Source: Nitrospirales bacterium
Lineage (GTDB): Bacteria > Nitrospirota > Nitrospiria > Nitrospirales > UBA8639
Direction: 5' to 3'
Assembly (NCBI GenBank): GCA_021604105.1
Contig: BQIW01000006.1
Span: forward strand, 1 to 64,000
DNA length: 64,000 bases
The translations under genes were made by a program, and so were the position numbers. The notes below the pieces were generated by a model that searched no databases, was not told the DNA's origin, and was given only the letters and a program-made list of their open reading frames with translations. This document shows positions 38,825-60,302 of the stretch, piece after piece. Every line of letters begins with the position of its first letter. Position 1 is the stretch's first letter.

Positions 38825-39317
38825 CACAACTCATGTGCCTGCTGAAATTCGGCAGGAGCACAAAAGCACAGCCACCAGGGAAGAAATCACTTTTCATTAA
38901 TTGGTTCCTCCAACCCTTCCACCGGGTTGCCCCCAACCTATTTGTTCCAAAACATTCCAATTACGTCAGGCGGCATCTCCCACCTTCTGAACCTTGCAAA
39001 TCAGGATACAAGGCCTCATGTCTTCATTATAAAGTGACAAGTTCAACTGATTGTCCAGATTCACAGTTGTCACCCTTTGTATAATTCTTATTGAATTTTT
39101 ACATTAAGAAAAACTGCTTTTGTTCAGGGAATTATCTGTTAAAATAACTTGACTTGACGATAGGCCGGTCCCACAAGAAATAGTGAAAGTCCCCGGTCCG
39201 TCATGAAGGAGGAAAGGCCCTATCCTCTAACAGGACGAAAAATCGCAGTAGTATTAGGAATATCTCCAACAGGCCACTTATTTCCTTTCGCCTGTGCATG
39301 GTCAGATCGCGCACCCC

Positions 39318-40461: not shown

Positions 40462-41736
40462 TTAAAAGGTCGCTCCAACGCCTAATGTCCAGACTGCATC
40501 CGGACGGAGCCCTTCATTTTTATTGAGAGGAAGCTGGACTGCGGCCTGAAGCAAAGTGTTGGGAAGAGGAGCCCATTTTAACCCGGGAGCCAAATCGACG
40601 ATGTCCTTTCCACTGTTATCCTTATCGTCCAATTCGTGACGACCCAGAAGATCAAGTGAGAAAGCAAAGACCGGAATCGGTGCCAGATCAAATCCTGCCA
40701 CATAGGTAAAAAGATTCAGTTCGGATTTATTGTTGACGAGCACGAAGCCCGTATTCACATGGGGTCCAATCATGCCGATCGGGGATGAATAGTATTTAGA
40801 AGCCACAGCCAATCCCTCAAATTTGAATTCTCCGACTCCCATGAAATTATCTTCGTTTCCCGTGGGAAAAGAAATGCCCCCACGTACGCCCAAATCCGGA
40901 AGGATCTCATGATTTTTTAGAAAGTTATATTTGGTTCGCAGAAGAACGTCGCCGATCCCGGTTTTGTCCTCAGACGAACTGTCTTTTGAAGGATCTCCCG
41001 TACCGGGTGTTGTGCCATTGATCACGTAAATACCACTGCAATTTCCACCCTGGGTACAAGGGACGCCGTTGGCATCAAGCATGGTTGCCTTCGCTTTGGC
41101 CTTGATCTTGTTATTGATGAGAGGAACCAAAAGATTGACATCCCAATTATCCGTGAGGCCATACGTGCCAAAAAATCCCACAAAATTGGTGATCACTTTG
41201 ACGTCCAGGTTAATTTGTAATAACTCATCTAATCCTGGGGCATTCGGTGGAGTTCCAGGTCCGGCTGTGGGAGAGACATCTTCACTGAGAGAGGATAGCT
41301 TCTGCCCATTAAATTTCTTGTAATTGGCGTTGGACCAGACGACCTGGAAATCAAATCGCCCTTTTCCAAGCGTGTCCGCCCGTTCCGCAAATAGAGGACC
41401 GAGGCTTTTGGTGACTTCAACCGGAACTCCCCGTTCAACATCAAACCGATAGGCTGCCACAGTAGAGTTCACCGCAAATTGCCCTGTTTGTGCCCCAATG
41501 CCATTGGTCAATTCATTAAATGAATTAAATACCGCATTGCCAAAATCATTGGACCGATTGCCTGCAAAATTAGGATCTGTTTGAAACCCATTTCCCCCAT
41601 AAAGACCAGGAATCACGTTTTTTAAGTCTTTGGCCATAGTCACAGGTGGACCGATGACGAGCATCACCAACAGAAGGATGCAAGCCAACGGCTGAATTCC
41701 TCTACATAAAGGGTTCTGCATGAGCCAATAGGTCAT
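40462..41736 (-). CDS. Predicted outer-membrane beta-barrel (MetA/phenol-degradation-like transporter)
   Basis: Signal peptide, FGTYGLTDNWDVNLLVPLI, GIGDVLLRTKYNFLKN...GVRGGISFPTGNEDNF, terminal aromatic F. Confidence 0.7.
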   Translation of the reverse strand: MTYWLMQNPLCRGIQPLACILLLVMLVIGPPVTMAKDLKNVIPGLYGGNGFQTDPNFAGNRSNDFGNAVFNSFNELTNGIGAQTGQFAVNSTVAAYRFDVERGVPVEVTKSLGPLFAERADTLGKGRFDFQVVWSNANYKKFNGQKLSSLSEDVSPTAGPGTPPNAPGLDELLQINLDVKVITNFVGFFGTYGLTDNWDVNLLVPLINNKIKAKAKATMLDANGVPCTQGGNCSGIYVINGTTPGTGDPSKDSSSEDKTGIGDVLLRTKYNFLKNHEILPDLGVRGGISFPTGNEDNFMGVGEFKFEGLAVASKYYSSPIGMIGPHVNTGFVLVNNKSELNLFTYVAGFDLAPIPVFAFSLDLLGRHELDDKDNSGKDIVDLAPGLKWAPLPNTLLQAAVQLPLNKNEGLRPDAVWTLGVGATF

Positions 41737-42365: not shown

Positions 42366-45300
42366 GTGTTCGATCGCGTTCTACATCATCCCATCCTGAG
42401 AAGAGGATCCCTCCTCTGCCCCAGCTTCCTGCTGCTTTCTCTCTTGTTATTCAGTTTGATCCCGTTGCTCCTCCCGGTCCAGGTCTATGCTGATACCTCA
42501 AGTATTACCGTCAACGGAAAAACGCCTGCCCAATATATAACCGCGACCCAAGGAAAATCCTGGGCGGTGATCATAGGAATTGATAAATATCTGAACCTCG
42601 CCGGCTTGGCCTATGCGGTTGATGATGCGAAATCCGTGGCTCGCATGCTCGGGCGTCAAGGATTTACGATCACATCACTCTACAACACCCAGGCCACCAA
42701 AAAAGCGATCCTTAGGGAATTGCGCCAAAACCTTCTTTCAAAAGTGCAAAAAGACGATCAAGTGCTCATCTTTTTTGCCGGTCATATTGGAGAAACTCCC
42801 GGCACAGGAAAACAACAACCCGCGGGTTATATGATGCCCGTCGATACCGAACCAGGACTCCTTGCGGACACCGCAATCAACGTGGACCTTCTTCGTGAAC
42901 TTTCGGAAACACTTCCGGCGAAACAGGTTTTATTTCTCATTGATATTTGTTATGGAGGGATTGCTGGTCGCAGCCAGCGTTCATTGCCCCCCATGACCGG
43001 TAATTATTTGAAGATGATTGGCCGTGAACCTGCACGCCAATTGATTACCGCAGGAGGGACCGGACAACAAGCCTTAGCCGGACCAAAGTGGAAACATAGC
43101 GTGTTTACCTATTATCTTCTGGAAGGCATTGGGAAGGGCAAGGGTGACCTGAACGGCGATGGCATCATTCCCGCGTCCGAACTCTTTGCCTTTCTCGATG
43201 AGCACGTGCAATCGGCAGCTCTCACCCATAAACATGTGCAACAACCGGAAATGTGGGCGTTGAAGTCGGAAAAAGGAGAATTTGTCTTTATTCCTAAGAA
43301 AATTTCCTCCACCCCCCAAGTCGCGAACACCCCCAATCGTCAAGAAAAAACAAGCAATCCTGCATCTGGTACAGTCGAGACCATTGTCGGACTCCTAAAG
43401 AGTTTTGGCAATCCCTTGGATATCTTCAACAACGACGTTCCATCTGGAAAGGGCGAGCAGGCTGATAAACAAAAAACGATAGAAGAAGAGGCCGCGGCGC
43501 TAGAAGCAGAGCGGGAAAAATTTGAATTGCAGGCTCTTCAATCCTTAAAGGAGCAACGACAGCGGGAGAAGGATCTTCAAGCGCAACTGGCCGAAGCCCA
43601 GCGCCTGGCCGCGGAAGAGGAACGCCGGCGGGTCGCCGCCGAACAGGCCCGCCAGGAAAAAGAAGCCCTCTTAGTGCAACAACAAGCCGCCCTAAAAGCT
43701 CAACAAGCCAAACTCGCCGCGGAGGAGGAGCGCCGCAAACAACTCTTGGCCCAACGAGAACGGGAATTTCAGACTCAACTGGCCATAGCCCAGCGAATGG
43801 TAGCCGAAGAAGAACGGCGACGAGTGGAAGCGGAAAGGGCCCGACTCGCTTCAGAGGAGCAAAAACGAAAACAACTCTTGGCGGAACAGGAACTTACGCG
43901 TCAAACTCAACTCGCTGAAGCTCGACGCATGGCCGAGGAACAGGCCAGAATTGAAGCCGAGAAACAGCGCCGAAAGGAGGCAGAACTCACCCGCCAAACC
44001 CAACTGGCTGAAGCTCGACGCATGGCCGAAGAACAGGCCAGAATTGAAGCCGAGGAACAGCGCCGCAAGGAGGCAGAACTCACCCGCCAAGCCCAATTGG
44101 CTGAAGCCCGGCGAGTGGCTGAAGAACAGGCCAGAATTGAAGCCGAAGAACAGCGCCGGAGGGAAGCCTTGGCCAAACAGGAACTTACCCGCCAACTCCA
44201 ATTGGCTGAAGCCCGACGAGTGGCTGAAGAACAGGCCAGAATTGAAGCCGAGAAACAGCGCCGAAAGGAGGCAGAACTCACCCGCCAAACCCAACTGGCT
44301 GAAGCCCGACGAGTGGCTGAAGAACAGGCGCGCATTAAACAAGAGGCGGCGATGAAAGCCGAAAAGGCCAGACTCGCGGCCCTGGAAGAAGAGCGGGAAC
44401 AAGTCGCCCGGCTCAAGCAAGAGGCGGCGATGAAAGCCGAACAGGCCAGACTTGCCGCGAAAGAGCAACAACGTCAGCAAGCTGAGGAAGCGCGTCGCCT
44501 GGCTGAGTTGGAAGAAGAGCGACGACGAGTCGCCGCAGAACGGGAGCGCAAGGAACTAGAGGAGAAACTTGCGCAACCACAAATCGTCCCGAATGGTGGA
44601 AATGATCCGGCAGAGCCTTCTCCTGAAAGTTCCCCATCGCCTGGAACCATTTCCGCGTTCACTCCTACTCCCCCATCCCCCTCTGCCATTGAACCATCCT
44701 CGAATGAAAGTTCGGGGTTTTTCGGATTTTTTAAGAATATGTTCCACCAAGACCCTACCTCGCAGCCGGCGACCAGCGAGCAACCGAATGGATCTCAACC
44801 GGAACCTATCCTGGAAGCACGGCTCCATCAACAAGAGTTACCTGACGCCGTTCAATCTGCCCTGTCAGAAAATGATGATGTCCCCATGATCTTGATTCCC
44901 GCAGGGAAATTTAGGATGGGAAGTACTGAAGATCAAATTTCCAGCGTCCTGAAAAATTTTGAAGGAATCCAGTTCAATGCTTTTCGAGCCGAAATTCCTC
45001 AACGCCAGATTCAACTCAATGCCTATTACATTGATCAATATGAGGTCAGCTATCGCCACTATCGCGCATTTCTGGAATCTACCGGTCGGGCACCTCCTGC
45101 ATTCTGGGAGAATGAACGATTTCACAAACCGGATCATCCGGTCCTTGGAGTGACCTGGTATGATGCAACCGCCTATTGCACCTGGGCGGGCAAACGCCTT
45201 CCAACCGAGGCAGAATGGGAACACGCCGCCAGAGGATCCCAGGACTATGCCTATCCTTGGGGGAATTCGTGGGATCCTCAACGAACCAATACGGCGAGTT

Positions 45301-45662
45301 ATTGGGCAGGCAAAAATTTTTCATCCATGGCGAAATGGGGTGAATGGATGCAAACCGCGTTGGATCGTGGGAAAGCCGGCCCGTTAGAGATTGGCACATT
45401 CTCGAATGGCGTCAGTCCATTTGGTGTTCATGACATGGCCGGAAATATATCTGAGTGGGTCTTCGATTGGTATGCGCCATACGAGAGCCAACTGATGCTC
45501 ATTCACAATCCCAACGGGGCGGATTCCGGGACTATGAAAGTGCATCGTGGAGGATCTTGGAGTGTGAGTTCGATTTTTGCCCGGTCGACCTATCGGGCGC
45601 GAGAAAATCCTGAGAAGAGAAGTCCATACATTGGAATGCGTTGCGCCAAATCCTATCAGTAA
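42366..45662 (+). CDS. Predicted-exported caspase-like (C14) / coiled-coil / FGE-sulfatase-fold fusion protein
   Basis: Signal segment LLLFSLIPLLLPVQVYADTS; caspase region WAVIIGIDKYLNLAGLAYAVDDAKSVARML with candidate dyad FFAGHIG and LIDICYGG; ~330-aa charged coiled coil; C-terminal MILIPAGKFRMGS...LPTEAEWEHAARG...VHDMAGNISEWVFDWY...VHRGGSWSVSS. Confidence 0.9.
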   Translation: MFDRVLHHPILRRGSLLCPSFLLLSLLLFSLIPLLLPVQVYADTSSITVNGKTPAQYITATQGKSWAVIIGIDKYLNLAGLAYAVDDAKSVARMLGRQGFTITSLYNTQATKKAILRELRQNLLSKVQKDDQVLIFFAGHIGETPGTGKQQPAGYMMPVDTEPGLLADTAINVDLLRELSETLPAKQVLFLIDICYGGIAGRSQRSLPPMTGNYLKMIGREPARQLITAGGTGQQALAGPKWKHSVFTYYLLEGIGKGKGDLNGDGIIPASELFAFLDEHVQSAALTHKHVQQPEMWALKSEKGEFVFIPKKISSTPQVANTPNRQEKTSNPASGTVETIVGLLKSFGNPLDIFNNDVPSGKGEQADKQKTIEEEAAALEAEREKFELQALQSLKEQRQREKDLQAQLAEAQRLAAEEERRRVAAEQARQEKEALLVQQQAALKAQQAKLAAEEERRKQLLAQREREFQTQLAIAQRMVAEEERRRVEAERARLASEEQKRKQLLAEQELTRQTQLAEARRMAEEQARIEAEKQRRKEAELTRQTQLAEARRMAEEQARIEAEEQRRKEAELTRQAQLAEARRVAEEQARIEAEEQRRREALAKQELTRQLQLAEARRVAEEQARIEAEKQRRKEAELTRQTQLAEARRVAEEQARIKQEAAMKAEKARLAALEEEREQVARLKQEAAMKAEQARLAAKEQQRQQAEEARRLAELEEERRRVAAERERKELEEKLAQPQIVPNGGNDPAEPSPESSPSPGTISAFTPTPPSPSAIEPSSNESSGFFGFFKNMFHQDPTSQPATSEQPNGSQPEPILEARLHQQELPDAVQSALSENDDVPMILIPAGKFRMGSTEDQISSVLKNFEGIQFNAFRAEIPQRQIQLNAYYIDQYEVSYRHYRAFLESTGRAPPAFWENERFHKPDHPVLGVTWYDATAYCTWAGKRLPTEAEWEHAARGSQDYAYPWGNSWDPQRTNTASYWAGKNFSSMAKWGEWMQTALDRGKAGPLEIGTFSNGVSPFGVHDMAGNISEWVFDWYAPYESQLMLIHNPNGADSGTMKVHRGGSWSVSSIFARSTYRARENPEKRSPYIGMRCAKSYQ
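43935..44330 (+). repeat. Imperfect ~93-bp tandem repeats encoding the coiled coil
   Basis: Four copies of EEQARIEAE(K/E)QRR(K/R)EAELTRQxQLAEARR(M/V)A, with nearly identical DNA; one copy is 35 aa instead of 31. Confidence 0.9.
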
Positions 45663-45759
45663 TTGCTTCAATCAATTCCCTGATCTCACTCGACGGTCCA
45701 TATCCGAATAGCCTCATTGCCTGACATCACACCACCATGCTCCTCCCGGCAAACAGAAA

Positions 45760-48573
45760 CTACTGAATCTCCCAATCCGTGGAGGTCGACCCTGGAAAAC
45801 CCACCGAGGAAATCGTCAATCCGTCCATCAGCCAGACCGCTACCGTCCCATTTCTGCTATTGCGCCAAATGACATCCGCCTTGCCATCCCCGTTCACATC
45901 CCGGGCCTCTGAAATGTGCCAGGCCACCGGCACTCCACCCGGAAAACCTGAGGCCGCCATGGCGGTCCCGTTCATCAACCAGATCGCCGTATTGCCGTCA
46001 GTCGTATTGCGCCAAATCAGGTCCGCCTTGCCATCCCCGCTTACATCACCCACACCCGTGATTTCAAAAGCCGGCGAGGCACTTCCAGGAAAGCCCACAG
46101 CTGTCACCGACAATCCGTTCATCAGCCACACGGCCACTCCCCCACTGGTGCCATTGCGCCAAATCACATCGGCCTTGTTATCCCCGTTCACATCACCCAC
46201 CCCCGCAATGTGCCAGGCCACCGGCACTCCACCCGGAAAACCTGAGGCCGCAATCGTGGTTCCATCCATCAACCAGATCGCCGTACTGCCGTCAGTCGTA
46301 TTGCGCCAAATCAGGTCCGCCTTGCCATTTCCGTTCACATCGCCCACACCCATGATCTTAAAATCCGTCGAGGCACTACCCGGAAACCCGGTGGAAATAA
46401 TTGTTAACCCATCCATCAGCCACACGGCCACTCCCCCACTGGTGCCATTACGCCAAATCACATCGGCCTTGTTATCCCCGTTCACATCGCCCACCCCCGC
46501 AATGTGCCAGGCCACCGGCACTCCACCGGGAAAGCCTGAGGCCGCAATCGTGGTTCCATCCATCAACCAGATCGCCGTGCTGCCATTAGAATTGTTCCGC
46601 CAAACCAGATCAGCTTTGCCATTGGCATCGAGATCTCCCAAGGCCGGTGCAGTTCTGGGTGGAACCAACGTCAAGGCCGTCGTCACAAAAAAGTCCGGAC
46701 CCGTGAGTTCCATCTCGGTTCTGGTTTGATTGTTCAGATTGATCCTTTCAAATAGAATATTTTTGGTAAATCCTGAGGTCACCTTATGCTGCCCGGAAAA
46801 ATGATACAGGAAGTCCGGTGACGTTCCCACACCAATGGTCTCACTTTCCCGGAAATCCGGTTGCCCCGCCACGGCACCGGCCGAGACATCCAGGAATTCC
46901 ATCGTAGCTCCCGTTGTTTTATTCACCCTATAAATCCGTGCCGGAAGCACCGACGTTCCCCCGGGCACCGGTCGGTTGTCCGTGATCACATAGAGAGTTC
47001 CGGCCGCATCAAACGCCAGGTCCATAAAGTTTCCTTGAAGTTTGGCCTTTTGGGTGGCCACCCCCGTCGTCGGATTAATCGTCACTAACCGGCGGATACT
47101 GTTCACTTCGGACGTCACGACAAGTAAGCCCCATAGCTGACCGGTTCCAGGCTCTGTCGCCAACCCACGCCCCCCTTCTAAGGATTCACCCGTCGATAAC
47201 GACAAAGGGATCTTGGCCAGCGTGGCACCGGTTTCGGGATTGAGCCGATACAGATTTGGCCGGGCTCCGGACTGTTGCCCAAGCATCAGCTCTTCCACGG
47301 AATACAACGTGGACCCGACAAAGGCCAATCCGTGCGTGCGGTGGGTCAAATCGGCAATTTTGGTTACCGCCCCATCAGTGCGAAGTCGGTAGAGGCTATT
47401 CACCAGCGGTCCGGTCTTGGGGTCATTTTGTACGCCCATGAGAAAAACTGGCGGTCCCGAGGAAATGACCAGAGCCACTGAACTCCCCGGAGTCACTTTT
47501 ATTCCGGCCACGGGCGTTTGACTGATGACGGTTCCGCTTGGCACCGTTTCGCTATTGGCGGTCGTCACAATCCCCACGGTTAAGCCCGCATCGCCCAGAG
47601 CCGTTTGGGCACGGCTCTGCGTCAAGCCTACGACATTGGGCACGGTCGTTCCCAGCGATACTACCAATGCAACCGCACTTCCAGGGTTCACAGTTGTGCC
47701 AGCCCCCGGGTTTTGACTCATGATTCTACCGGCCCCTACCGTAGCGCTATTGGCCGTGGTCACGGTTCCCACAGTTAAGCCTGCAGTGGTCAGGGCATTT
47801 CGGGCGTCAGCTTGTGTGCGACCAACAACATTCGGGACTTGTGCCCCTTGGGACACAACCAGGCCCACCGCGCTGCCCTCCGCCACCTTGGTTCCTGCTA
47901 CCGGATTTTGACTCAAAACCTTTCCTGTTGCTACAGAGATACTAATAGCTGTTATGACTGCCCCGACGGTTAAACCGGCTGTGGTAATTGCGGTTTGCGC
48001 GGCCGTCTGCGTTAAACCCACCACATTCGGCACCCCGTTGCCCAGTGACACCACCAGATCAATCGGACTCCCAAATGCCACACCGGTTCCCGCCGTGGGG
48101 TTCTGACTGATGACCCTGCCCTCCCCCACGGTAGCACTATTGACCGTCGCCACCTTCCCTACGGATAATCCTGCTTTGGTCAGATCCTTTAGGGCGTTAG
48201 CCTGTTTTCGACCAACAACGTCCGGGACGGCCACTCCGGAAACCACCAAATCAACCTTGGTACCCCGGATCACATTAATCCCTGCTGCTGGATCTTGCCT
48301 GATGATGGTCCCTGGCAGGACAGCCACATTATTAGCCGAGGTGACCTTTCCCACTCTCAGATTGGCTTTGACAAGATCCGCCTCCGCCTTAGCCTGTGAG
48401 CTACCCACGACATTGGGGATTTCGACGGCTCTTGCTGTTTCAGGTAAGGCACCGGCAAGAAACAGCAGACTTCCGAGGACGACGAGTTGTAAGACCATGC
48501 ACTTGAAACTCTGACGGGTTCCCCTGTTTGTGCAGTTCAAGCTCCCCTGATGCTGGACTGTCATTGCGTCCAT
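45760..48573 (-). CDS. Secreted PASTA(x5) / central propeller-like domain / FG-GAP-like (x6) protein, paralog A
   Basis: Signal peptide, then five ~65-aa VPNVVGxxQ...VVSxG units, then FLMGVQNDPKTGPLVNSLYRLRTDG domain, then six DxNGDGKADxIWRN blades. Confidence 0.92.
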   Translation of the reverse strand: MDAMTVQHQGSLNCTNRGTRQSFKCMVLQLVVLGSLLFLAGALPETARAVEIPNVVGSSQAKAEADLVKANLRVGKVTSANNVAVLPGTIIRQDPAAGINVIRGTKVDLVVSGVAVPDVVGRKQANALKDLTKAGLSVGKVATVNSATVGEGRVISQNPTAGTGVAFGSPIDLVVSLGNGVPNVVGLTQTAAQTAITTAGLTVGAVITAISISVATGKVLSQNPVAGTKVAEGSAVGLVVSQGAQVPNVVGRTQADARNALTTAGLTVGTVTTANSATVGAGRIMSQNPGAGTTVNPGSAVALVVSLGTTVPNVVGLTQSRAQTALGDAGLTVGIVTTANSETVPSGTVISQTPVAGIKVTPGSSVALVISSGPPVFLMGVQNDPKTGPLVNSLYRLRTDGAVTKIADLTHRTHGLAFVGSTLYSVEELMLGQQSGARPNLYRLNPETGATLAKIPLSLSTGESLEGGRGLATEPGTGQLWGLLVVTSEVNSIRRLVTINPTTGVATQKAKLQGNFMDLAFDAAGTLYVITDNRPVPGGTSVLPARIYRVNKTTGATMEFLDVSAGAVAGQPDFRESETIGVGTSPDFLYHFSGQHKVTSGFTKNILFERINLNNQTRTEMELTGPDFFVTTALTLVPPRTAPALGDLDANGKADLVWRNNSNGSTAIWLMDGTTIAASGFPGGVPVAWHIAGVGDVNGDNKADVIWRNGTSGGVAVWLMDGLTIISTGFPGSASTDFKIMGVGDVNGNGKADLIWRNTTDGSTAIWLMDGTTIAASGFPGGVPVAWHIAGVGDVNGDNKADVIWRNGTSGGVAVWLMNGLSVTAVGFPGSASPAFEITGVGDVSGDGKADLIWRNTTDGNTAIWLMNGTAMAASGFPGGVPVAWHISEARDVNGDGKADVIWRNSRNGTVAVWLMDGLTISSVGFPGSTSTDWEIQ
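47455..48423 (-). repeat. PASTA repeat array, 5 copies (approximate limits)
   Basis: Counted by eye in paralog A; ~65-aa / 195-bp unit. Confidence 0.85.
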
Positions 48574-48718
48574 GTAGTGTTTGCTCCATTCACCAACAAT
48601 TGACTAACCATATGACAAAACAAGGATTTGAATCCATACTTTGGTTCCGGCAATCCCTCTCTTGAATGCCACTTTTACTTATTATCGTGACATGAAGCGA
48701 AGATGCCGCAACCAATGT

Positions 48719-51700
48719 CTACTGAATCTCCCAGTCTGAGGGAGCCGAGCCGGGGAACCCCACGCTTGAAATCGATGATCCATTCATCAGCCAGACGGCC
48801 ACTGTCCCGCTTCCCCCATTTCGCCAGATAACATCCGATTTGCCATCGCCGTTGATATCGCCGACTTGAGAAATCTGCCATGCCAGGGGTACCCCGCCAG
48901 GAAAACCGGGAGCAGCAATGACGGTCCCATTCATCAACCAGATCGCGGTACTGCCGTCCGTCGAATTGCGCCAGACCAGATCCGCTTTGCCATCCCCATT
49001 CACATCGCCGACCCCCGCAATCTCAAATGCGGTCGACGCACTGCCGGGAAAGCCGACCCCCGTGATACCTAATCCGTTCATCAGCCACACCGCTACGGTG
49101 CCGTTCCCACCATTGCGCCAGATGACATCCGCCTTACTATCCCCATTCACATCCCCGACACCTGAGATTTGCCAGCCTACCGGCACCCCGCCCGGAAAAC
49201 CAGGAGCCGCGATTTTCGTTCCATTCATCAGCCAGATAGCGGTACTGCCATCAGTTCTGTTGCGCCAGATCAGGTCGGCTTTCCCATCGCCGTTGACATC
49301 GCCCACACCCGCAATCTCAAACGCGGTCGTCGCGCTTCCGGGAAACCCCACGGCCGATACCGACACTCCGTTCATCAGCCACACCGCCACAGTGCCACTT
49401 GTGCCATTGCGCCAGATGACATCCCCCTTGCCGTCTCCATTCACATCGCCCACACCCGCAATCTTCCAGGCCGCTGGCACCCCGCCTGGAAAGCCGGAAG
49501 CCGCAATCCTGGTTCCATTCATTAACCAGATGGCCGTGCTGCCATCTTGGGTGTTTTGCCAGATCAGATCGGTCGTGCCGGACGCATCCAGATCGGCCAA
49601 AGCCGGAGTACCTGCACCGGTATTCGTATTTGTGGGTGGCACCAACGTCAAGGCTGTCGTGACAAAAAAGTCCGGGCCCGAGAGCGCAATGGCTTTTCTG
49701 GCCTTCGTGGTTCGATGGATCTGCTCAAACAAAATATTCTTGGTAAATCCTGAGGTCACCTTATGTTGCCCGGAGAGATGATACAGGAGATCCGACGACG
49801 ACCCGACCCCTATGGTTTCACTCTCCCGGAAATTCGGTTGCCCCGCTACGGCGCCGGCCGAGACGTCCAGGAATTCCGTCGCAGCCCCTGTCGTTTTATT
49901 TACCGTATAAATCCGGGCCGGAGCCACAGCCCCACCCGATACGGGTCGGTTATCCGTGATTGCGTACAGCGTCCCGGCCGCATCAAACGCCAGGTCCATG
50001 AAGTTTCCAAACAGTTTGGCCTTTTGCGTGGCGACCCCGGTCGTCGGATTGATTGTTACCAGCCGGCGGATGGTATTGACCTCGGAGGTCACCACGAGTA
50101 ACCCCCACAGTTGGTTGGTTCCAGGCTCCGTGGCCAGACCCCGCCCTCCTTCTAAGGATTCCCCTGTTGATAAGGACAGGCGGATCGTGGCCAGCGTGGC
50201 CCCGGTGCTGGGATTGAGCCGATACAAATTCGGCGGAGTCCCCGCTGATTTCGCCAGCGTCAGCTCTTCTACGGAATACAAGTTGGACCCGACATAGGCC
50301 AAACCATGGGTACGGTGCGTGAGATCTCCAATCTTGGACACCACCCCATCGGTACGAAGGCGGTAGAGGCTATTCACCAGCGGCCCGGTCTTGGGATCAT
50401 TTTGCACACCCATCAGGAGAACCGGTGGACCCGAGGAAATCACCAAACCGACGCCACTACCTGGGGAAACATTCGTCCCCGCTGTCGGGTTTTGACTAAT
50501 CACATTTCCCGAAGCCACCGTGTCGCTAAAAACTGAGGTCACATTCTCCACCGTCAAGCCTACACCGGCAATGGCAGCTTGCGCCGCAGACTGCGATTTA
50601 TTGACCACATCGGGCACAGCCGTCCCCAGCGACACCACCAGAGCGACAGAACTGCCAGGGGCCACATTAGACCCCGCTGTCGGATCTTGACTGATAACGT
50701 TTCCGATGGCCACCGTCTGACTGTTGGCCGAAGTCACTGTACCAACTTTCAGCCCGGCTGAGCTCAAAGCGGTTTGTGCACTACCCCTCGAAATCCCGAC
50801 GACATCGGGCACCTTTGCCCCAAGGGACACGACTAGGGCCACGGCACTGCCTGCCTCCACCTTAGCCTCTGCAGCCGGATTCTGACTGATGACCCTGCCC
50901 GCCGCCACGGAACCACTATTAGCGGTCGTCACCCTGCCTAACGTTAGGTTGGCCTCGGTAATCGCTGTTTCCGCGGCAGCCCTGGTCAAGCCCACCACCT
51001 TCGGCACCACCACACCCAGAGATACCACCAATGTCACAGCGGTTCCTGGAGCCACATTAACCCCAGCCTCGGGAGATTGATTGATCACCGTGCCCGCCGG
51101 CACGGTCGTACTGGTCGCGCTCGTTATCGTCCCCAGGGTTAATCCCCCACTGGTAATGGCTGTTTCTGCCGCATCCTGCGTTAAGCCAACCACATCGGGC
51201 ACCTTTGCCCCAAGGGACACTTCAAGGGCAACGGCACTCCCCGGAGGCACATTACTCCCCGCTGTCGGCGTTTGACTGATTACGTTGCCGATAGGCACCG
51301 TGGCACTATTGGTTGTCGACCCTGTCCCCACTGTCAGACCTGCCGCTGTAATGGCGGTTTCCGCCGCGGCCTGGGCCAATCCAACCAGATCCGGGACTGC
51401 GGTGCCCAGAGACACCACCAGTGTTACAGCACTATCCGGCAATACATTGGTACCCGCTGCCGGCGTTTGACTGATTACAGTGCCGATGGGCACTGTGGTA
51501 CTATTGACTGTCGACCCTGTCCCCACTGTGAGACCCGCTGCCGTAATGGCAGATTCCGCGGACTCCTGTGCCAACTCCACGACATTTGGAACCGTCACTC
51601 CGGATATCACGAGGTCCACCGGACTGCCTGGTACCACATTGATCCCGGCCGCCGGATCCTGACTGATCACGCTGCCGATGGGCACCGTCGCACTATTGAC

Positions 51701-51964
51701 CGACGTCACAACCCCCACCGATAGATCCGAGTTGGTAATGGCCGCCTCTGCCGTTGCTTGTGGATTTCCGATAACATCGGGGACCTCTGCAGCGCCTGCC
51801 GTTGTAGGTAAAGTACAGATGAATACTAACAGGCACATAGGAACCATCAACTTCAAAAGAATCGAGGTGAGATCTCCTGGCAATTTCTGACAGGTGAAAT
51901 TCAACATAAATCTGTTCGTGTGCAGAATTTTCATCACGTTCATGTCATTGACTCCATTCAGCAA
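48719..51964 (-). CDS. Secreted PASTA(x7) / central propeller-like domain / FG-GAP-like (x6) protein, paralog B
   Basis: Same architecture as paralog A; seven PASTA units counted, six blades counted. Confidence 0.92.
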   Translation of the reverse strand: MLNGVNDMNVMKILHTNRFMLNFTCQKLPGDLTSILLKLMVPMCLLVFICTLPTTAGAAEVPDVIGNPQATAEAAITNSDLSVGVVTSVNSATVPIGSVISQDPAAGINVVPGSPVDLVISGVTVPNVVELAQESAESAITAAGLTVGTGSTVNSTTVPIGTVISQTPAAGTNVLPDSAVTLVVSLGTAVPDLVGLAQAAAETAITAAGLTVGTGSTTNSATVPIGNVISQTPTAGSNVPPGSAVALEVSLGAKVPDVVGLTQDAAETAITSGGLTLGTITSATSTTVPAGTVINQSPEAGVNVAPGTAVTLVVSLGVVVPKVVGLTRAAAETAITEANLTLGRVTTANSGSVAAGRVISQNPAAEAKVEAGSAVALVVSLGAKVPDVVGISRGSAQTALSSAGLKVGTVTSANSQTVAIGNVISQDPTAGSNVAPGSSVALVVSLGTAVPDVVNKSQSAAQAAIAGVGLTVENVTSVFSDTVASGNVISQNPTAGTNVSPGSGVGLVISSGPPVLLMGVQNDPKTGPLVNSLYRLRTDGVVSKIGDLTHRTHGLAYVGSNLYSVEELTLAKSAGTPPNLYRLNPSTGATLATIRLSLSTGESLEGGRGLATEPGTNQLWGLLVVTSEVNTIRRLVTINPTTGVATQKAKLFGNFMDLAFDAAGTLYAITDNRPVSGGAVAPARIYTVNKTTGAATEFLDVSAGAVAGQPNFRESETIGVGSSSDLLYHLSGQHKVTSGFTKNILFEQIHRTTKARKAIALSGPDFFVTTALTLVPPTNTNTGAGTPALADLDASGTTDLIWQNTQDGSTAIWLMNGTRIAASGFPGGVPAAWKIAGVGDVNGDGKGDVIWRNGTSGTVAVWLMNGVSVSAVGFPGSATTAFEIAGVGDVNGDGKADLIWRNRTDGSTAIWLMNGTKIAAPGFPGGVPVGWQISGVGDVNGDSKADVIWRNGGNGTVAVWLMNGLGITGVGFPGSASTAFEIAGVGDVNGDGKADLVWRNSTDGSTAIWLMNGTVIAAPGFPGGVPLAWQISQVGDINGDGKSDVIWRNGGSGTVAVWLMNGSSISSVGFPGSAPSDWEIQ
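50430..51790 (-). repeat. PASTA repeat array, 7 copies (approximate limits)
   Basis: Counted by eye in paralog B; spurious antisense ORFs at 51285 and 51480 are spaced 195 bp, matching the unit. Confidence 0.85.
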
Positions 51965-52240
51965 GAATCAGCTGCCCAGTCCACGGCGATCCAGGCTCGC
52001 CTGGTTCAATCAGACACTTACGCGCCCACCATGGATTGCTGTTGCTTTTTTCAGTGAATTTAAGAAGGGGCGTTCGTTGTCTCTACAATGGGGGAGGGTT
52101 CGGCCGTGTATTAAATCAGGTGGCTGAAATAATTCTGATCGGGAACACGAAAAATTAAAGTGAAGTATAACATGAGAAGGTTGACGCGTTCCATCCTTAG
52201 CTCGCTGACCCTGGTGATCCCATCCAACCGGAATGAAAAT

Positions 52241-55200
52241 CTACTGAATCTGCCAAACTGAGGATGCCGAGCCAGGGAAACCCACGGCCGAAATTGACAA
52301 CCCGTTCATCAGCCATACCGCAACAGTACCGCTCGTGCCATTGCGCCAGATGACATCCGCCTTGCCATCCCCATTCACATCGCCGACTTGTGAAATTTGC
52401 CATGCTAGGGGTACCCCGCCAGGAAAACCGGGGCCGGCAATGGTGGTTCCATTCATTAACCAGATGGCCGTGCTGCCATCAGTCCTGTTTCGCCAAACCA
52501 GATCGGCTTTGCCATCCCCATTCACATCACCCACGCCTGCGATCTCAAATGCCGTCGACGCACTACCGGGAAAGCCGACCTCGGTGATACTTAAACCGTT
52601 CATCAACCATACGGCCACGGTGCCTACGGCGTTCCGCCAAATGACATCCGCCTTGCCATCTCCATTCACATCGCCCACGCCCGCAATCTGCCAGGCCAAA
52701 GGCAACCCGCCAGGAAAACCGGAAGAGCCAATGGCAGTCCCATTCATCAACCAGATCGCCGTGCTGCCATCATTCTGGTTGCGCCAGACCAGATCCGCTT
52801 TGCCATCCCCATTCACATCGCCGACTCCCGCAATCTCAAACGCTGTTGACGTGCTTCCGGGAAAACCCAAGGTCGTCACCGATATTCCGTTCATGAGCCA
52901 CACGGCCACGGTGCCGGTGGCATTCCGCCAGACGAGATCGGCCTTGCCATTGCCGTTCACATCGCCTACGCCCGCGATCTGCCAGGACATCGGAACACCC
53001 CCCGGAAAGCCGGAGGCGGCGATCGTCGTTCCATTCATCAACCAGATCGCCGTACTGCCATCAGTTGTATTCCGCCAAATCAGGTCGGTCGTACCGGACG
53101 CATCCAGATCGCCCAGGGCAGATACATTCGGACTCATGGGTGGCACCAAGGTCAAGGCCGTGGTCACAAAAAAGTCCGGGCCGGTGAGTTCCATCTCGGT
53201 TCTGGTTTGATTGTTCAGATTGATCCTTTCAAACAGAATATTTCTGGTAAATCCTGAGGTCACCTTATGCTGCCCGGAAAGATGATACAGCAGGTCAGAG
53301 GCAGTCCCCACCCCAATCGTTTCACTTTCTCGAAAATTCGGTTGCCCCGCCACGGCGCCAGCCGAGACATCCAGAAATTCCGTCGTAGTCCCGGTCGTCT
53401 TATTCACCGTATAAATTCTGGCCGGAGACACGCCTCCCCCCGAAACCGGTCGGTTATCCGTAATCGCATACAGCGTCCCGGCCGCATCAAAGGCCAGATC
53501 CATAAAGTTTCCAAACAGTTTGGCCTTTTGAGTAGCCAGACCCGTTGTCGGATTAATCGTCACTAACCGCCGGGCATTGTTTACTTCGGACGTCACCACC
53601 AGCAACCCCCACAGCTGATTGGTCCCAGGCTCCGTGGCCAGCCCTCGTCCCCCAACTAACGATTCGCCCGTGGACAAGGAAAGGGAGATCGTCTCCAGTG
53701 TGGCACCGGTGTCGGGATTGAGCCGATACATCTTCGGCGGGGCCCCAGCCTGTTGCGCAAGCGTCAGTTCTTCCAAGGAATACAAGGTGGACCCGACAAA
53801 GGCCAAGCCATGCGTGCGATGCGTCAGGTCTGCGATTTTGGTCACCACTCCATCTGTGCGAAGGCGGTAGAGGCTATTCACTAGCGGCCCGGTATTAGGA
53901 TCATTTTGCACCCCCATAAGAAAAGCCGGCGGTCCGGAGGAAATCTCCAGGGCCACCCCGCTGCCTGGAGCCACATTCGTCCCCGCTAACGGGTTTTGAC
54001 TGATCACGGTTCCCAGGGGTACGGTATCGCTAAAAACCGGGGTCACTGTCCCCACAGTAAGGCCCGCCGTGATCAAAGCCGTTTGAGCTATACTTTGTGT
54101 CAAACCCACAACATCTGGCACCTGAGCTCCAAGCGATATCACCAGGGCTACCGTACTGCCAGGCGCCACATTGTTCCCGGCTGTCGGATTTTGACTAATG
54201 ACAGCACCAATTGCCACAGTGGGACTCGTGGCGGTCGTCACGGTCCCCACTATCAAGCCCGCCGTAGTAATTGCAGATTGCGCCGCTGCCTGCGCCAAGC
54301 CCACCACATTCGGGACTGCGGCACCGAGGGAGACGACCATATTCACGGCACTACCCTCCGTCACGCTAGTTCCTGAAGAGGGAGTTTGACTGATGACTCT
54401 TCCAATGGACACCGTCGGACTTGTGGCGGTCGTCACCGTCCCCACTGTCAAGCCCGCCGTGGTAATCGCGGATTGCGCCGCCGCCTGCGTTAAACCCACC
54501 ACATCCGGTACCACCGGCCCCAAGGACACCACCAAGGCCACAGCACTGCCTGGCGCTACATTGCTCCCGGCCTCTGGATTCTGACTGATGACATTTCCAG
54601 GGGGTACCGTCGGACTCGCGGTAGTCGTCACATCCCCCACTGTTAAACCGACATTCGTAATGGCTGTCTGGGCGGCGGCTTCCGCCAAGCCCACCACATT
54701 AGGCACCGCAGTGCCCTGGGAGACGACAAAATTCACGGCGCTGCCCGCATTGACACTGGTTCCTGGAGCAGGAGTTTGACTGATGACCCTTCCGATTGCC
54801 ACCGTCTGACTATTGGTTGAGGTCACAGTGCCCACGGTCAAGCCGGCATTGGTAATTTCGGTCTGCGCGGCAGTCTGCGTTAAACCCACCACATCCGGAA
54901 CAGCAGGCCCCAGCGACACCACGAAAGCCACAGCACTGCCTGGCGCTACATTGTTCCCGGCCCCTGGATCCTGACTGATGACATTCCCGGCCGGCACCGA
55001 TGGATGACTGGCTGTTGTGATGGCCCCTATCGTCAACCCGGCATTGGTAATCGCCGTTTGGGCAGCCGACTGTGCCATGCCCACCACATCCGGCACCGCA
55101 GTTCCCAGGGACACCACGAAAGCCACGGCACTACCTGGTTCCACATTGCCCCCTGCTGCGGGGTTCTGACTGATAACCGTCCCAATAGGTACAGTGGCAC

Positions 55201-56095
55201 TATTCGCTGACGTCACCGTCCCAACCGTAAGCCCCGCGTTTGTGATGGCGGTTTGGGCATTTCCCTGTGTGAACCCAACCACATCCGGCACAACCGCGCC
55301 CAGAGACACCACCAAGGACACCGCACTGCCAGCCTCCACATTGGTCCCCGCCACTGGATTCTGGCCGATGACGTTTCCAATGGCCACCGTTGTACTATTG
55401 GCTGACGTCACCGTCCCCACTGCCAGGTTGGCACTGGAAATCGCCGTTTGCGCGGTGCCTTGGGCCAACCCCACGACATTTGGCACCGCGATACCCAGAG
55501 AGACCACCAAGGCGACCGCATTACCCTGAAAAACATTGGTCCCCGCAGCCGGATTCTGATCGATGATGTTTCCAATAGGCACGGTCGCATTATTCGCTGA
55601 CGTCACCGTCCCCACCGTGAGATCCGCATTCGTGATGGCAGTTTGGGCCGCCGCCTGTGCAAATCCCACCACATTCGGTACCGCCACTCCAGAAATTACA
55701 AGATCCACCGGACTGCCCGGTACCACATTGATCCGCGCTGCCGGATCTTGGTTGATAACGTGGCCAATGGGCACACCACCATCAATGGCCGCCGTCACAA
55801 CTCCCACAGTGAGACCGACGTTTATAATATCGGACTCTGCTGTAGCCTGTGGGCTCCCGATAACATCCGGAACTTCTATGGCTCTTGCTGTTGCTGGAAA
55901 TATTAAGTTGAAGAAAAAGAGGCTTACGGGAACCACCAGCCACAAAAAGATCAACTTGTGACCTCTTTCCAATTTCTGGTGGGTTAGATTCAACCCGATC
56001 AGGTGCTGAACCTTCATCACATCCCTAAAGGATCCGGTCGTGGATAGACCTAAGTGGCCGAAAGATATCTCATGATGCGCACAAGAGAAACACAA
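52241..56095 (-). CDS. Secreted PASTA(x10) / central propeller-like domain / FG-GAP-like (x6) protein, paralog C
   Basis: Ten PASTA units counted; six blades. Likely start MKVQHLIGLN at 56017 with upstream AGGGA. Confidence 0.92.
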   Translation of the reverse strand: MCFSCAHHEISFGHLGLSTTGSFRDVMKVQHLIGLNLTHQKLERGHKLIFLWLVVPVSLFFFNLIFPATARAIEVPDVIGSPQATAESDIINVGLTVGVVTAAIDGGVPIGHVINQDPAARINVVPGSPVDLVISGVAVPNVVGFAQAAAQTAITNADLTVGTVTSANNATVPIGNIIDQNPAAGTNVFQGNAVALVVSLGIAVPNVVGLAQGTAQTAISSANLAVGTVTSANSTTVAIGNVIGQNPVAGTNVEAGSAVSLVVSLGAVVPDVVGFTQGNAQTAITNAGLTVGTVTSANSATVPIGTVISQNPAAGGNVEPGSAVAFVVSLGTAVPDVVGMAQSAAQTAITNAGLTIGAITTASHPSVPAGNVISQDPGAGNNVAPGSAVAFVVSLGPAVPDVVGLTQTAAQTEITNAGLTVGTVTSTNSQTVAIGRVISQTPAPGTSVNAGSAVNFVVSQGTAVPNVVGLAEAAAQTAITNVGLTVGDVTTTASPTVPPGNVISQNPEAGSNVAPGSAVALVVSLGPVVPDVVGLTQAAAQSAITTAGLTVGTVTTATSPTVSIGRVISQTPSSGTSVTEGSAVNMVVSLGAAVPNVVGLAQAAAQSAITTAGLIVGTVTTATSPTVAIGAVISQNPTAGNNVAPGSTVALVISLGAQVPDVVGLTQSIAQTALITAGLTVGTVTPVFSDTVPLGTVISQNPLAGTNVAPGSGVALEISSGPPAFLMGVQNDPNTGPLVNSLYRLRTDGVVTKIADLTHRTHGLAFVGSTLYSLEELTLAQQAGAPPKMYRLNPDTGATLETISLSLSTGESLVGGRGLATEPGTNQLWGLLVVTSEVNNARRLVTINPTTGLATQKAKLFGNFMDLAFDAAGTLYAITDNRPVSGGGVSPARIYTVNKTTGTTTEFLDVSAGAVAGQPNFRESETIGVGTASDLLYHLSGQHKVTSGFTRNILFERINLNNQTRTEMELTGPDFFVTTALTLVPPMSPNVSALGDLDASGTTDLIWRNTTDGSTAIWLMNGTTIAASGFPGGVPMSWQIAGVGDVNGNGKADLVWRNATGTVAVWLMNGISVTTLGFPGSTSTAFEIAGVGDVNGDGKADLVWRNQNDGSTAIWLMNGTAIGSSGFPGGLPLAWQIAGVGDVNGDGKADVIWRNAVGTVAVWLMNGLSITEVGFPGSASTAFEIAGVGDVNGDGKADLVWRNRTDGSTAIWLMNGTTIAGPGFPGGVPLAWQISQVGDVNGDGKADVIWRNGTSGTVAVWLMNGLSISAVGFPGSASSVWQIQ
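53935..55880 (-). repeat. PASTA repeat array, 10 copies (approximate limits)
   Basis: Counted by eye; antisense ORFs at 54198, 54393 and 54588 are spaced exactly 195 bp, matching the unit. Confidence 0.87.
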
Positions 56096-56176
56096 TATTA
56101 CCTAACAATGTCGTTTGTGAGAATTAATGCCTTCTTACTCGATGTCCCCTGTAAGTCAGCAGCTCGGATATTCAAA

Positions 56177-59100
56177 CTACTGAATTTCCCAATCGGAGGG
56201 AGCGGAACCCGGGAAACCCACAGTCGAAATTGACAACCCGTTCATCAACCAGACCGCTACTATGGCACTGGTATCATTGCGCCAGATGACATCGGCATGA
56301 CCATCTCCGTTCACGTCGCCGACTTGAGAAATTTGCCACGCTACGGGCACGCCCCCAGGGAAGCCGGCCGTGGTAATGGCTGTCCCATCCATTAACCAAA
56401 TCGCCGTACTGCCATTGCTCTGGTTTCGCCAGATCAAGTCCGCCTTTCCATCGCCATTCACATCCCCAACCCCCGCCATATCAAAAGCGGTTGGGGCAAC
56501 TCCGACAAAGCCTACGTCTGTCACCGATAACCCATTCATCAGCCATATAGCCACTCCCCCACTAATACCATTGCGCCAAATGACATCTGCTCTATTATCC
56601 CCATTGACATCGCCCACCCCCTCGAGTTGCCAGGCCACGGGCACTCCCCCCGGAAAGCCGGAGGCGGCAATTGTCGTTCCATTCATCAACCAAATGGCGG
56701 TGCTACCGTCAGTGATGTTACGCCAAACCAGGTCGGCTTTACCATCGCCGTTCACATCGCCCACGCCTGCAATCTCAAACGCCGTCGAAGTGCTTCCCGG
56801 AAAGCCAACAGCCGTCACCGACACCCCGTTCATGAGCCACACGGCTACGGTGCCGGTGGTATTATTGCGCCAGATGACATCCGCCTTGCCATCGCCGTTG
56901 ACATCGCCCACGCCCGCGATATGCCAAGCCCTCGGAACACCTCCCGGAAAGCCGGAGGCGGCGATTGTCGTTCCATTCATCAACCAGATCGCGGTGCTGC
57001 CATCACTCTGGTTACGCCATATGAGGTCGGCCGTGCCCGACGCATCCAGATCTCCCAATGCCGGAGGACCCGTAGGTGGCACCATGGTCAGGGCGGTTGT
57101 CACAAAAAAATCCGGACCTGTGAGGGCCATCGCGGTTCTGGCTTTTGTCGTCAGATGAATCGTTTCAAACAAAATATTCTTAGTAAAGCCTGTGGTTACC
57201 TTATGCTGCCCGGAGAGATGATACAATAGGTCGGAAGAAGACCCCACCCCGATCGTTTCGCTTTCTCGAAAATTCGGTTGCCCCGCCACGGCCCCGGCCG
57301 AAACATCCAGAAATTCCGTCGTAGCTCCTGTCGATGTATTCACCGTATAAATCCGCGCCGGAAACACCGCCGCCCCCCCTGGCACCGTTCGGTTGTCCGT
57401 GATCACATAGAGCGTCCCGGATTCATCAAATGCCAAGTCCATAAAGTTCCCAAACAATTTAGCCTTTTGGGTTGCCACCCCCGTGGTCGGATTAATGGTC
57501 ACTAACCGCCGCGCACTGTTCACTTCGGACGTCACGACAAGTAACCCCCACAGCTGATTGGTTCCAGGTTCCGTCGCCAGCCCTCGCCCCCCCTCTAAGG
57601 ATTCGCCCGTTGATAATGATAAAGGTATCCTGGCCAGCGTGGCCCCGCTTTCGGGGTTCAGCCTATACAAATTCGGTGAAGCTCCGGACTGCGGAGAAAG
57701 GGACAGTTCCTCGATGGAATACAACGTGGTCCCGACATAGGCCAAGCCATGCGTGCGATGAGACAATTCCCCAATTTTGGTCACTACTCCATCGGTACGA
57801 AGTCGGTAGAGGCTATTCACCAGGGGTCCGGTCTTGGGATCATTTTGCACCCCCATCAGAAAAACCGGCGGTCCGGAAGAAATTACCAGGGCTACCGAAC
57901 TGCCCGGATCCACATTGACGCCTGCTTTTGGATTTTGACCAATAACGTCGCCAATCGGCACCGTAGAACTAATGGTTGTCGTCACTATTCCCACGGTCAG
58001 TCCAGCCGTGGTCAATGCCTTTTGAGCATTGATCTGCGTCAAACCCACGACACCGGGCACCTGAGTCCCTAGCGATACTACTAGGGCCACTGCACTTCCC
58101 GGAGCCACATTGTCCCCCGCTGGCGGGGTTTGACGGATGATAGTACCAATCTCCTTTGTTGAACTCGTGGCAGTCGTCACCGTGCCCACCGTCAAGCCAG
58201 CATTGGTAATGGCGGTTTGCGCCGCGGGTTGCGTCAAGCCCTCAACATTCGGCACTGAAGCTCCAAGAGAAACGACCAGGTTCACTGCACTATCCGCCGC
58301 CACTTTGGTTCCTGGATCGGGAGTTTGACTGATGACTCTGCCAATAGGGACTGTCTGACTATTGGCGGATGTTACCGTGCCCAGCTTCAACCCTGCCGAG
58401 GAAAGCGCTGTTTGGGCCGCAGCCCGGGTTTTTCCCACGACATTCGGCACTACCGGACCTGTCGACACCACCAGGCTCACCGCACTATCCACCGCCACAC
58501 TCGCCCCCGCCGCCGGCGTTTGACTGATGACCCGCCCCGCGGCCACCGTGGCATGACTGCTCTCCGTGACGGTCCCTACCTTGAGCCCCGCATTGGTGAG
58601 CGCGGTCTGCGCCGCCCCCTGCGTGCTGCCCACCACATTCGGCACCGTCACCGGCGCCGGGCCTGTCGACACCACCAGGGCCACCGCACTATCCACCGCC
58701 ACACTCGCCCCCGCCGCCGGCGTTTGACTGATGACACTGCCCGAAGGCACCGTGGCATGGTTGGCAGTCGTGATGGGTCCCACCGCCAAACCCGCTCCTG
58801 TAATGGCTGACTCGGCCGCCCCCTGCGTGCTGCCCACCACATTCGGCACCGTCACCGGCGCCGGGCCCGTCGACACCACCAGGCTCACCGCACTGCCGGC
58901 CGCCACACTCGCTCCCGCCGCCGGCGTTTGACTGATGACACTGCCCGAAGGCACCGTGGCATGGTTGGCGGTCGTGATGGGTCCCACCGCCAAGCCCGCT
59001 CCTGTAATGGCTGACTCGGCCGCCCCCTGACTCAACCCAACCACATCGGGGACATCTTCAGCCCATACTGTGGGCAACGCGAAGGTGGGTAACAACATTC

Positions 59101-59209
59101 CCACCACAACCATGATCTTGAAAAGATGTATCAGCCAACTATGGGCTTTATCACTTTGTTTCAGTTTCCGGACATCATTAAGCTGTTGCTCTGCGGCGTT
59201 CATGCGCAA
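56177..59209 (-). CDS. Secreted PASTA(x6) / central propeller-like domain / FG-GAP-like (x6) protein, paralog D
   Basis: Six PASTA units counted; first units carry a GPAPVT linker; six blades; signal peptide MVVVGMLLPTFALPTVWAED. Confidence 0.92.
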   Translation of the reverse strand: MRMNAAEQQLNDVRKLKQSDKAHSWLIHLFKIMVVVGMLLPTFALPTVWAEDVPDVVGLSQGAAESAITGAGLAVGPITTANHATVPSGSVISQTPAAGASVAAGSAVSLVVSTGPAPVTVPNVVGSTQGAAESAITGAGLAVGPITTANHATVPSGSVISQTPAAGASVAVDSAVALVVSTGPAPVTVPNVVGSTQGAAQTALTNAGLKVGTVTESSHATVAAGRVISQTPAAGASVAVDSAVSLVVSTGPVVPNVVGKTRAAAQTALSSAGLKLGTVTSANSQTVPIGRVISQTPDPGTKVAADSAVNLVVSLGASVPNVEGLTQPAAQTAITNAGLTVGTVTTATSSTKEIGTIIRQTPPAGDNVAPGSAVALVVSLGTQVPGVVGLTQINAQKALTTAGLTVGIVTTTISSTVPIGDVIGQNPKAGVNVDPGSSVALVISSGPPVFLMGVQNDPKTGPLVNSLYRLRTDGVVTKIGELSHRTHGLAYVGTTLYSIEELSLSPQSGASPNLYRLNPESGATLARIPLSLSTGESLEGGRGLATEPGTNQLWGLLVVTSEVNSARRLVTINPTTGVATQKAKLFGNFMDLAFDESGTLYVITDNRTVPGGAAVFPARIYTVNTSTGATTEFLDVSAGAVAGQPNFRESETIGVGSSSDLLYHLSGQHKVTTGFTKNILFETIHLTTKARTAMALTGPDFFVTTALTMVPPTGPPALGDLDASGTADLIWRNQSDGSTAIWLMNGTTIAASGFPGGVPRAWHIAGVGDVNGDGKADVIWRNNTTGTVAVWLMNGVSVTAVGFPGSTSTAFEIAGVGDVNGDGKADLVWRNITDGSTAIWLMNGTTIAASGFPGGVPVAWQLEGVGDVNGDNRADVIWRNGISGGVAIWLMNGLSVTDVGFVGVAPTAFDMAGVGDVNGDGKADLIWRNQSNGSTAIWLMDGTAITTAGFPGGVPVAWQISQVGDVNGDGHADVIWRNDTSAIVAVWLMNGLSISTVGFPGSAPSDWEIQ
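57870..59055 (-). repeat. PASTA repeat array, 6 copies (approximate limits)
   Basis: Counted by eye in paralog D; first two units nearly identical. Confidence 0.85.
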
Positions 59210-59624
59210 TGCCTCTTGGGGGTGGAAGCAAGCGAAACATCATTGAAAGAGAGATGAACAACACGGACATCTTTGCCCGGAAATCTCTCCTCGGATAAAA
59301 AATTATGTGTGCAGACTAGCCGAACACCGCTGTCTTTTCAATGTACCTTTATTTCACCCTTTTTATGCTTTTTTTATACATCTGGTGAAAGAGTTCCACC
59401 TTTACCAATGATTAGATTCTGACAGAAGGGTTTTTGAAAAACTAAATTGTTGACCCGGCAAAATGTCCCATTCGACCAATGAGAATGAGGACTTCAAACG
59501 TCCTCCGGACCTCGCTCCACTCCGAACGGTTGTCCACCTCTCCTGAGATCCTTATAATGGTCCTCAGTGTTCGCTCAATCAGCCTGATCACATACCCGAC
59601 ATCACAGGAAAAGGAGTCTTCGAG

Positions 59625-60302
59625 ATGGAAAAGAATACAGACGAAAAACCAACCACCGAGGTGCAGGATGATCCAAAAGCCCGCGAGCTGCTACAAGCCG
59701 CTTTTGCCAAAACCGCCCGGTGGCAACCAGACTTCAAAGGCTTTCAGGCCGACCTCCGCATTAATGTGAACGGAAAAGAAACTAAAGGGACCGTGACCGT
59801 GAAAGGGCCGCGGGATGTGACGGTGGTCATCGATGATACCGAATTACAAACCTGGGCCCAAAACCAGATTGGAATGATTGCCGTGCATCGGGGGCCCAGA
59901 ACGTTCGAGGAATCAGACGGGAAACACACCCTGACTTTAGGGGGAGAAGAACAGCACCCTTTAGGTCAACGGATTACCATTCATGGAGATGGAATGGGTT
60001 CCTGGTACCGGGTGAAAGACAACCGCATTACCCAAATCAATCGAAACATGCCTCAGGCAGCTTTTACCATCAACGTGGAAGATAGTGCCGTCACCCAGGA
60101 TCAACATTTTCTCACTACCCGATATACGGTCTATTATTTTTCCCCAAAAGACCGGTCACTGAAAAATGTCGACAGTTTTTCGGATACACATATCAGGATA
60201 GGCAACTCAGACCTTCCGGCGACCCGAAGGATTATTTCTTATGAAAACGGCGAAATCGTCGTGCGATCCCTCACGTTTGAAAATCACAACATGCTGTCAT
60301 AA
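59625..60302 (+). CDS. DUF3386-like protein
   Basis: DPKARELLQAAFAKTARWQPDFKGFQADLRINVNGKETKGTVTVKGPRDVTV; family assignment from recall. Confidence 0.7.
   Translation: MEKNTDEKPTTEVQDDPKARELLQAAFAKTARWQPDFKGFQADLRINVNGKETKGTVTVKGPRDVTVVIDDTELQTWAQNQIGMIAVHRGPRTFEESDGKHTLTLGGEEQHPLGQRITIHGDGMGSWYRVKDNRITQINRNMPQAAFTINVEDSAVTQDQHFLTTRYTVYYFSPKDRSLKNVDSFSDTHIRIGNSDLPATRRIISYENGEIVVRSLTFENHNMLS

Follow-up and report, generated by a model that had tools for sequence, protein, structure and literature searches.

What are four consecutive, apparently secreted proteins, each joining a row of PASTA repeats to a beta-propeller head, doing in a marine nitrite-oxidising Nitrospirales bacterium? The genes lie in the first 64,000 nucleotides of contig BQIW01000006.1 (hereafter the window), from a genome of 4.9 Mb in 217 contigs with an assembly completeness of 96%. 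As a first-pass annotation had claimed, four tandem open reading frames, all on the minus strand, fill the whole interval from 45760 to 59209 (Table 1). The transcription order given there (D, C, B, A) stands as to strand and otherwise hinges on which gene is labelled A; with the labels used here, transcription starts at the 59209 end and runs A, B, C, D from 5′ to 3′. The proposed signal peptides are apparent by eye in all four proteins as hydrophobic N-termini with AxA-type sites at their ends, and the gene A product is 1010 aa long when counted from a TTG, with the ATG at 59203 as its likely start. Scans of the array for promoters and terminators returned operon signals no better than chance. 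The GC content of positions 44001-60000 is 0.55-0.57, as against 0.46-0.52 in the rest of the window, a rise that Ala/Gly/Val/Thr-rich repeats alone may cause.

Table 1 Features of the array and its flanks, in window coordinates
Feature	Coordinates	Strand	Description
Gene A	56177..59209	-	Apparent signal peptide, 6 PASTA, central propeller, 6 FG-GAP repeats
Gene A 204-bp tandem PASTA units	58453..59029	-	2.8 copies, 88% match
Gene A central domain	57074..57874	-	DUF6923/DUF4394-related beta domain
Gene A FG-GAP/VCBS propeller	56180..57073	-	Six blades (predicted)
Gene B	52241..56095	-	Apparent signal peptide, 10 PASTA; likely start near 56017-56020
Gene B central propeller	53138-53935	-	
Gene B FG-GAP repeats	52244-53137	-	Six repeats
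Gene C	48719..51964	-	Apparent signal peptide, 7 PASTA
Gene C central propeller	49634-50431	-	
Gene C FG-GAP repeats	48722-49633	-	Six repeats
Gene D	45760..48573	-	Apparent signal peptide, 5 PASTA
Gene D central propeller	46657-47457	-	
Gene D FG-GAP repeats	45763-46656	-	Six repeats
Caspase-FGE gene	42366..45662	+	Hydrophobic N-terminus, caspase-like domain, long charged coiled-coil-type region, FGE-sulfatase domain
Outer-membrane-type protein gene	40462..41736	-	Phenol_MetA_deg family
DUF3386 gene	59625..60302	+	Upstream edge of array

Profile searches on all four ORFs recovered both of the expected domain families. Pfam PASTA (PF03793) matched with E-values of 1.7e-74 to 4.3e-126, and FG-GAP together with FG-GAP_3 with E-values of 3.1e-22 to 7.6e-35, in every case above the gathering score and far beyond chance; the C-terminal DxNGDGKADxIWRN blades noted earlier correspond to six 48-49-aa repeats per protein with Dx[DN]xDG loops. 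PASTA Ser/Thr kinases such as PknB and Stk1 have a cytoplasmic kinase domain joined to PASTA by a transmembrane helix. The Pfam scan found such a kinase domain in none of the four, the NCBIfam PknB_PASTA_kin match is restricted to their PASTA part, and the PknB chains in the PDB also match the stalk. The search of the genome (assembly completeness 96%) yielded 28 PASTA domains, every one of them in the array, so that no PASTA kinase or penicillin-binding protein (PBP) was found, and a kinase or PBP link was rejected. Wall sensing through a kinase or PBP, the customary role of PASTA, seems not to apply to this host. A role in anti-phage defence was likewise set aside, the PADLOC hits being to PD-T4-6 models that are matched, at best, along their C-terminal PASTA part, with the N-terminal part unmatched. 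Other Nitrospirota loci (L055, L057, L058, L061 and L067) encode, between an rsmB-like and an rpe-like gene, a small protein that seems to be membrane-anchored and has 2-3 PASTA domains.

The array is conserved in relatives, as the full set of four genes was also found in four sister species of the same genus (G003, G011, G015 and G019). In G015 it breaks at a contig end inside the gene A repeats, and the contig carrying DUF3386 opens with the start of gene A. The start of a gene-A-type protein was found in G017 and G002 on contigs that end there, within the gene, so that absence of the array from fragmented genomes is not established; G009 keeps one array-type gene, and in G008, G010 and G020 DUF3386, a gene widespread in the genus also where the array is missing, is present with no array found. 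Across 296 genomes sampled from the phylum, the central domain hardly occurs otherwise; among GTDB species genomes, a scan added one MAG that carries the Nitrospinaceae label. The locus with that label (L032, OFTM7) holds the same head type plus a gene resembling a neighbour in the Nitrospirales genome G007 (OFTM42); transfer and misbinning are both possible, since the names OFTM7 and OFTM42 point to a single sample series. Trees built from either the central domain or the FG-GAP part sort the sequences by paralog and not by species, which makes the array ancestral to these species; A and B are clades whichever part is used, C is one for the central domain and D for the FG-GAP part, and the other forks are poorly resolved. 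Recent amplification or duplication during assembly is ruled out by the same trees, since the paralogs are older than the species split. Plasmid carriage was also rejected: tblastn matches were partial only, none covering 80%, and those listed were FG-GAP-type or PASTA-kinase genes.

Stalk length follows a pattern of its own. Over the five species, PASTA counts are constant at 10 in B, 7 in C and 5 in D, for which lack of recombination may be responsible as well as selection, because the internal repeats have diverged. Gene A combines four proximal PASTA domains of 65 aa with a block of expandable 68-aa (204-bp) units, of which there is 1 in G017, 2 in the window genome, 3 in G003 (a 3 + 4 split inferred from its total of 7 PASTA), ~10 in G011 and 13 in G019 (13.5 copies of the 204-bp repeat), where the units match at 96%; the total thus ranges from about 5 to 17 among genomes, and the count of 2 in the window may be a lower bound, as near-identical units can collapse in assemblies. 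Between orthologs, dN/dS is 0.05-0.15 in the central domain and 0.05-0.16 in the FG-GAP part, and 0.15-0.27 in the stalk in most comparisons (one value, 0.45, was obtained with additional N-terminal residues whose start is uncertain), so purifying selection is stronger on heads than on stalks and the heads are the constrained part. Stalks have also been exchanged. Two G007 proteins with the same head type (central domain 50% and 45% identical) carry InlB-B-type repeats (PF18998, E=6.6e-37 and 4.5e-38) and no PASTA; at the gene A site beside DUF3386 in G018, the signal-peptide region shares 46% identity with its G002 counterpart and leads into other repeats of no assigned family, the remainder of the gene not being on the contig; and in G002 a gene-A-type signal region precedes PASTA domains that share 76% identity with those at the start of the gene B stalk. 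Together, these swaps point to the stalk as a replaceable spacer.

This behaviour of the stalk bears directly on whether the proteins might instead be periplasmic or wall-associated, with PASTA binding peptidoglycan or muropeptides and the heads scaffolding envelope proteins or measuring the periplasm. Peptidoglycan contact is what PASTA is best known for, the stalks match PknB structures, and the fixed numbers in D, C and B over five species also speak for this reading; in pneumococcal StkP, PASTA repeats are described as controlling septal wall thickness (Zucchini 2018 as cited in PMC6593474). However, InlB-B or other repeats stand in for PASTA within the family or at an equivalent site, constraint is lowest on the stalk, A varies from about 5 to 17 domains, and the genome yielded no PASTA kinase or PBP, so we hold a wall-bound function to be unlikely. 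The earlier suggestion of peptidoglycan-linked display is weakened by the same facts, namely a stalk that evolves faster than the head, a variable length in gene A and non-PASTA repeats in relatives.

The head, by comparison of paralogs, is the well-conserved module that had been recognised at first pass. Its central block of ~265 aa is 83-87% identical between paralogs, with 151 of 266 columns invariant in an alignment of 20 sequences. Matches to known families are weak: the block reaches 27.1 bits against DUF6923 (cut-off 27) in one member only, falls below the Pfam cut-off for DUF4394, and weakly matches DUF5074 and phytase-like models. An AlphaFold2 model of the head, built on an alignment of 22 heads, is all-beta with a mean pLDDT of 83.8, and has ~20 strands in the central block and 24 in the FG-GAP part, the latter arranged as six four-strand blades (pLDDT mostly >85); the FG-GAP part is thus predicted to be a six-blade propeller and the central block a propeller-like beta domain. 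FG-GAP repeats of the same parity are on average 70-76% identical and those of opposite parity 53-57%, which suggests that the propeller is a two-blade unit repeated three times. Its profile matched the Ca-binding blades of integrin alpha-IIb/alpha-V in the PDB (E=0.0035), and among the 50 Foldseek matches listed the PVL lectin had the lowest rmsd (5.3 Å, TM 0.36/0.48), most of those ranked above it being tandem propellers with very large rmsd. Calcium binding by the head is predicted from the DxNxDG loop motif. A full-length model of D shows five separate PASTA folds before the head, with a pTM of 0.41 at which the domain arrangement is unreliable; profiles and structure prediction together back the overall plan of a PASTA stalk with an FG-GAP head, to which they add a second propeller.

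Could one of the two propellers be catalytic, a lyase, hydrolase or phytase-like enzyme that PASTA and FG-GAP merely target? The scattered weak matches of the central domain, phytase-like models among them, and its many invariant columns are what such an enzyme might show, but no named enzyme family reached its cut-off in the four proteins or the central block, and no PDB relative of the block was found by sequence, which leaves a secreted enzyme a rather remote prospect.

In both single-contig genomes the repeats of gene A contain a break in the reading frame, of 1 bp in G019 and of a 127-bp partial unit in G011 (L018:13212-18562 and L019:13244-17885), which may reflect phase variation or an assembly or sequencing error in near-identical repeats. 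That the proteins are variable self-recognition or phase-variable surface antigens, switched on and off by repeat recombination, would fit these frame breaks, the expanding and contracting 204-bp units and the gene-A-type signal peptide before a B-type stalk in G002, but is very improbable given heads under purifying selection, constant repeat numbers in B, C and D, and frame breaks that may be sequencing errors. Self-recognition as first proposed is accordingly unsupported, the heads being under strong purifying selection with no diversification.

The neighbourhood offers one candidate partner. The caspase-FGE gene, convergent with the array, adjoins gene D in the window genome, G003, G011, G015 and G019, the single array-type gene in G009, and one head gene in G007, though DUF3386 of G007 sits on another contig; as a matter of gene order, this linkage to head genes is suggestive of a shared function. 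Both catalytic-type motifs of the caspase-like domain are visible by eye (FFAGH and DICYGG), and the protein has 16 matches in the genome, mostly to FGE domains. An outer-membrane-type gene similar to that in the window adjoins the caspase-FGE gene in G002, G007, G009, G013 and G018. A second FGE-sulfatase protein (39294-40367) lies on the far side of the outer-membrane-type gene, and genes resembling it occupy the same place in G002, G009, G013 and G018.

On balance we lean, by a modest degree, towards four secreted, stalked 'lollipop' proteins with two-propeller heads that would serve as adhesins or cross-link the matrix in the aggregates formed by nitrite oxidisers of this sort. All four would be exported by Sec; the PASTA repeats would form a rod of paralog-specific length, mainly a spacer, that keeps the head away from its attachment point; and the head, a DUF6923/DUF4394-like propeller followed by a probably Ca-stabilised FG-GAP/VCBS propeller, would most likely bind a glycan or matrix component. 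Against a role in adhesion, many propellers serve as enzymes or as scaffolds for proteins and are not lectins. What favours it is that VCBS propellers are typically linked to carbohydrate or protein binding (PMC9218822, PMC8023676), that aggregation of cells is seen in some cultured marine Nitrospirales (PMC10579370), and that the head matches the PVL lectin by fold and integrins by profile. Relatives of the type II secretin scored below the curated GspD cut-off and none above it was found, which leaves the passage through the outer membrane open and a periplasmic location conceivable. An out-of-frame gene A in both single-contig relatives is also odd for a needed protein, unless due to assembly error or phase variation. 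More tentatively, and with less confidence than in the adhesin or cross-linker role itself, PASTA may here have turned from a wall sensor into a length-graded spacer, with three fixed heights (5, 7 and 10) and an adjustable A presenting nearly the same head at differing distances from the cell, on exchangeable stalks and with a caspase/FGE partner.

Each module is already known, and a stalked propeller surface protein is a known kind. The closest functional parallel may be Bap1 and RbmC of Vibrio cholerae, two related secreted FG-GAP-repeat proteins with proposed carbohydrate-binding roles in the matrix (PMC3161981). The array proteins are likewise FG-GAP-repeat proteins in related copies, and we favour, by analogy, that they would work in a similar way, the sequence likeness being FG-GAP; Bap1 and RbmC, however, are without PASTA and a DUF4394-like propeller, and their beta-prism lectin domain is missing from the array proteins in Pfam and NCBIfam scans, so that the latter are not members of that family. 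With PASTA kinases (PknB/Stk1/PrkC) and PASTA PBPs the stalks share tandem PASTA, but the array proteins have no kinase or transpeptidase domain and carry 5 to ~17 PASTA N-terminal to a propeller head. VCBS/integrin-like propellers (PVL lectin, integrin alpha) share the DxNxDG loops, the ~49-aa blades and the profile and fold matches; in the array, though, the FG-GAP propeller follows another propeller and a PASTA rod in one fused protein, and has six blades built as three two-blade units where integrins have seven. Exported DUF4394/DUF6923 propellers, such as PEP-CTERM-like proteins of G230 from the same order, weakly match the central domain in sequence but, unlike the array, are stand-alone ORFs of 310-360 aa without PASTA or FG-GAP. 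At one G230 locus (L108), several stand-alone exported proteins, DUF4394-like ones among them, are encoded in a row and finish in PEP-CTERM-like sequences (VPIPAAVWLFGSGLA..R). Within partial coverage of the literature, we did not find described either the architecture of PASTA with a double propeller or the 5/7/10/variable stalk series combined with an absence of other PASTA proteins.

If this reading is true, PASTA would do duty as a structural stalk in a host where neither a PASTA kinase nor a PASTA PBP has been found, and the array would supply concrete candidate surface or matrix proteins behind the aggregation of marine nitrite oxidisers. A series of stalk lengths on near-identical heads also makes the question of whether display height matters directly testable.
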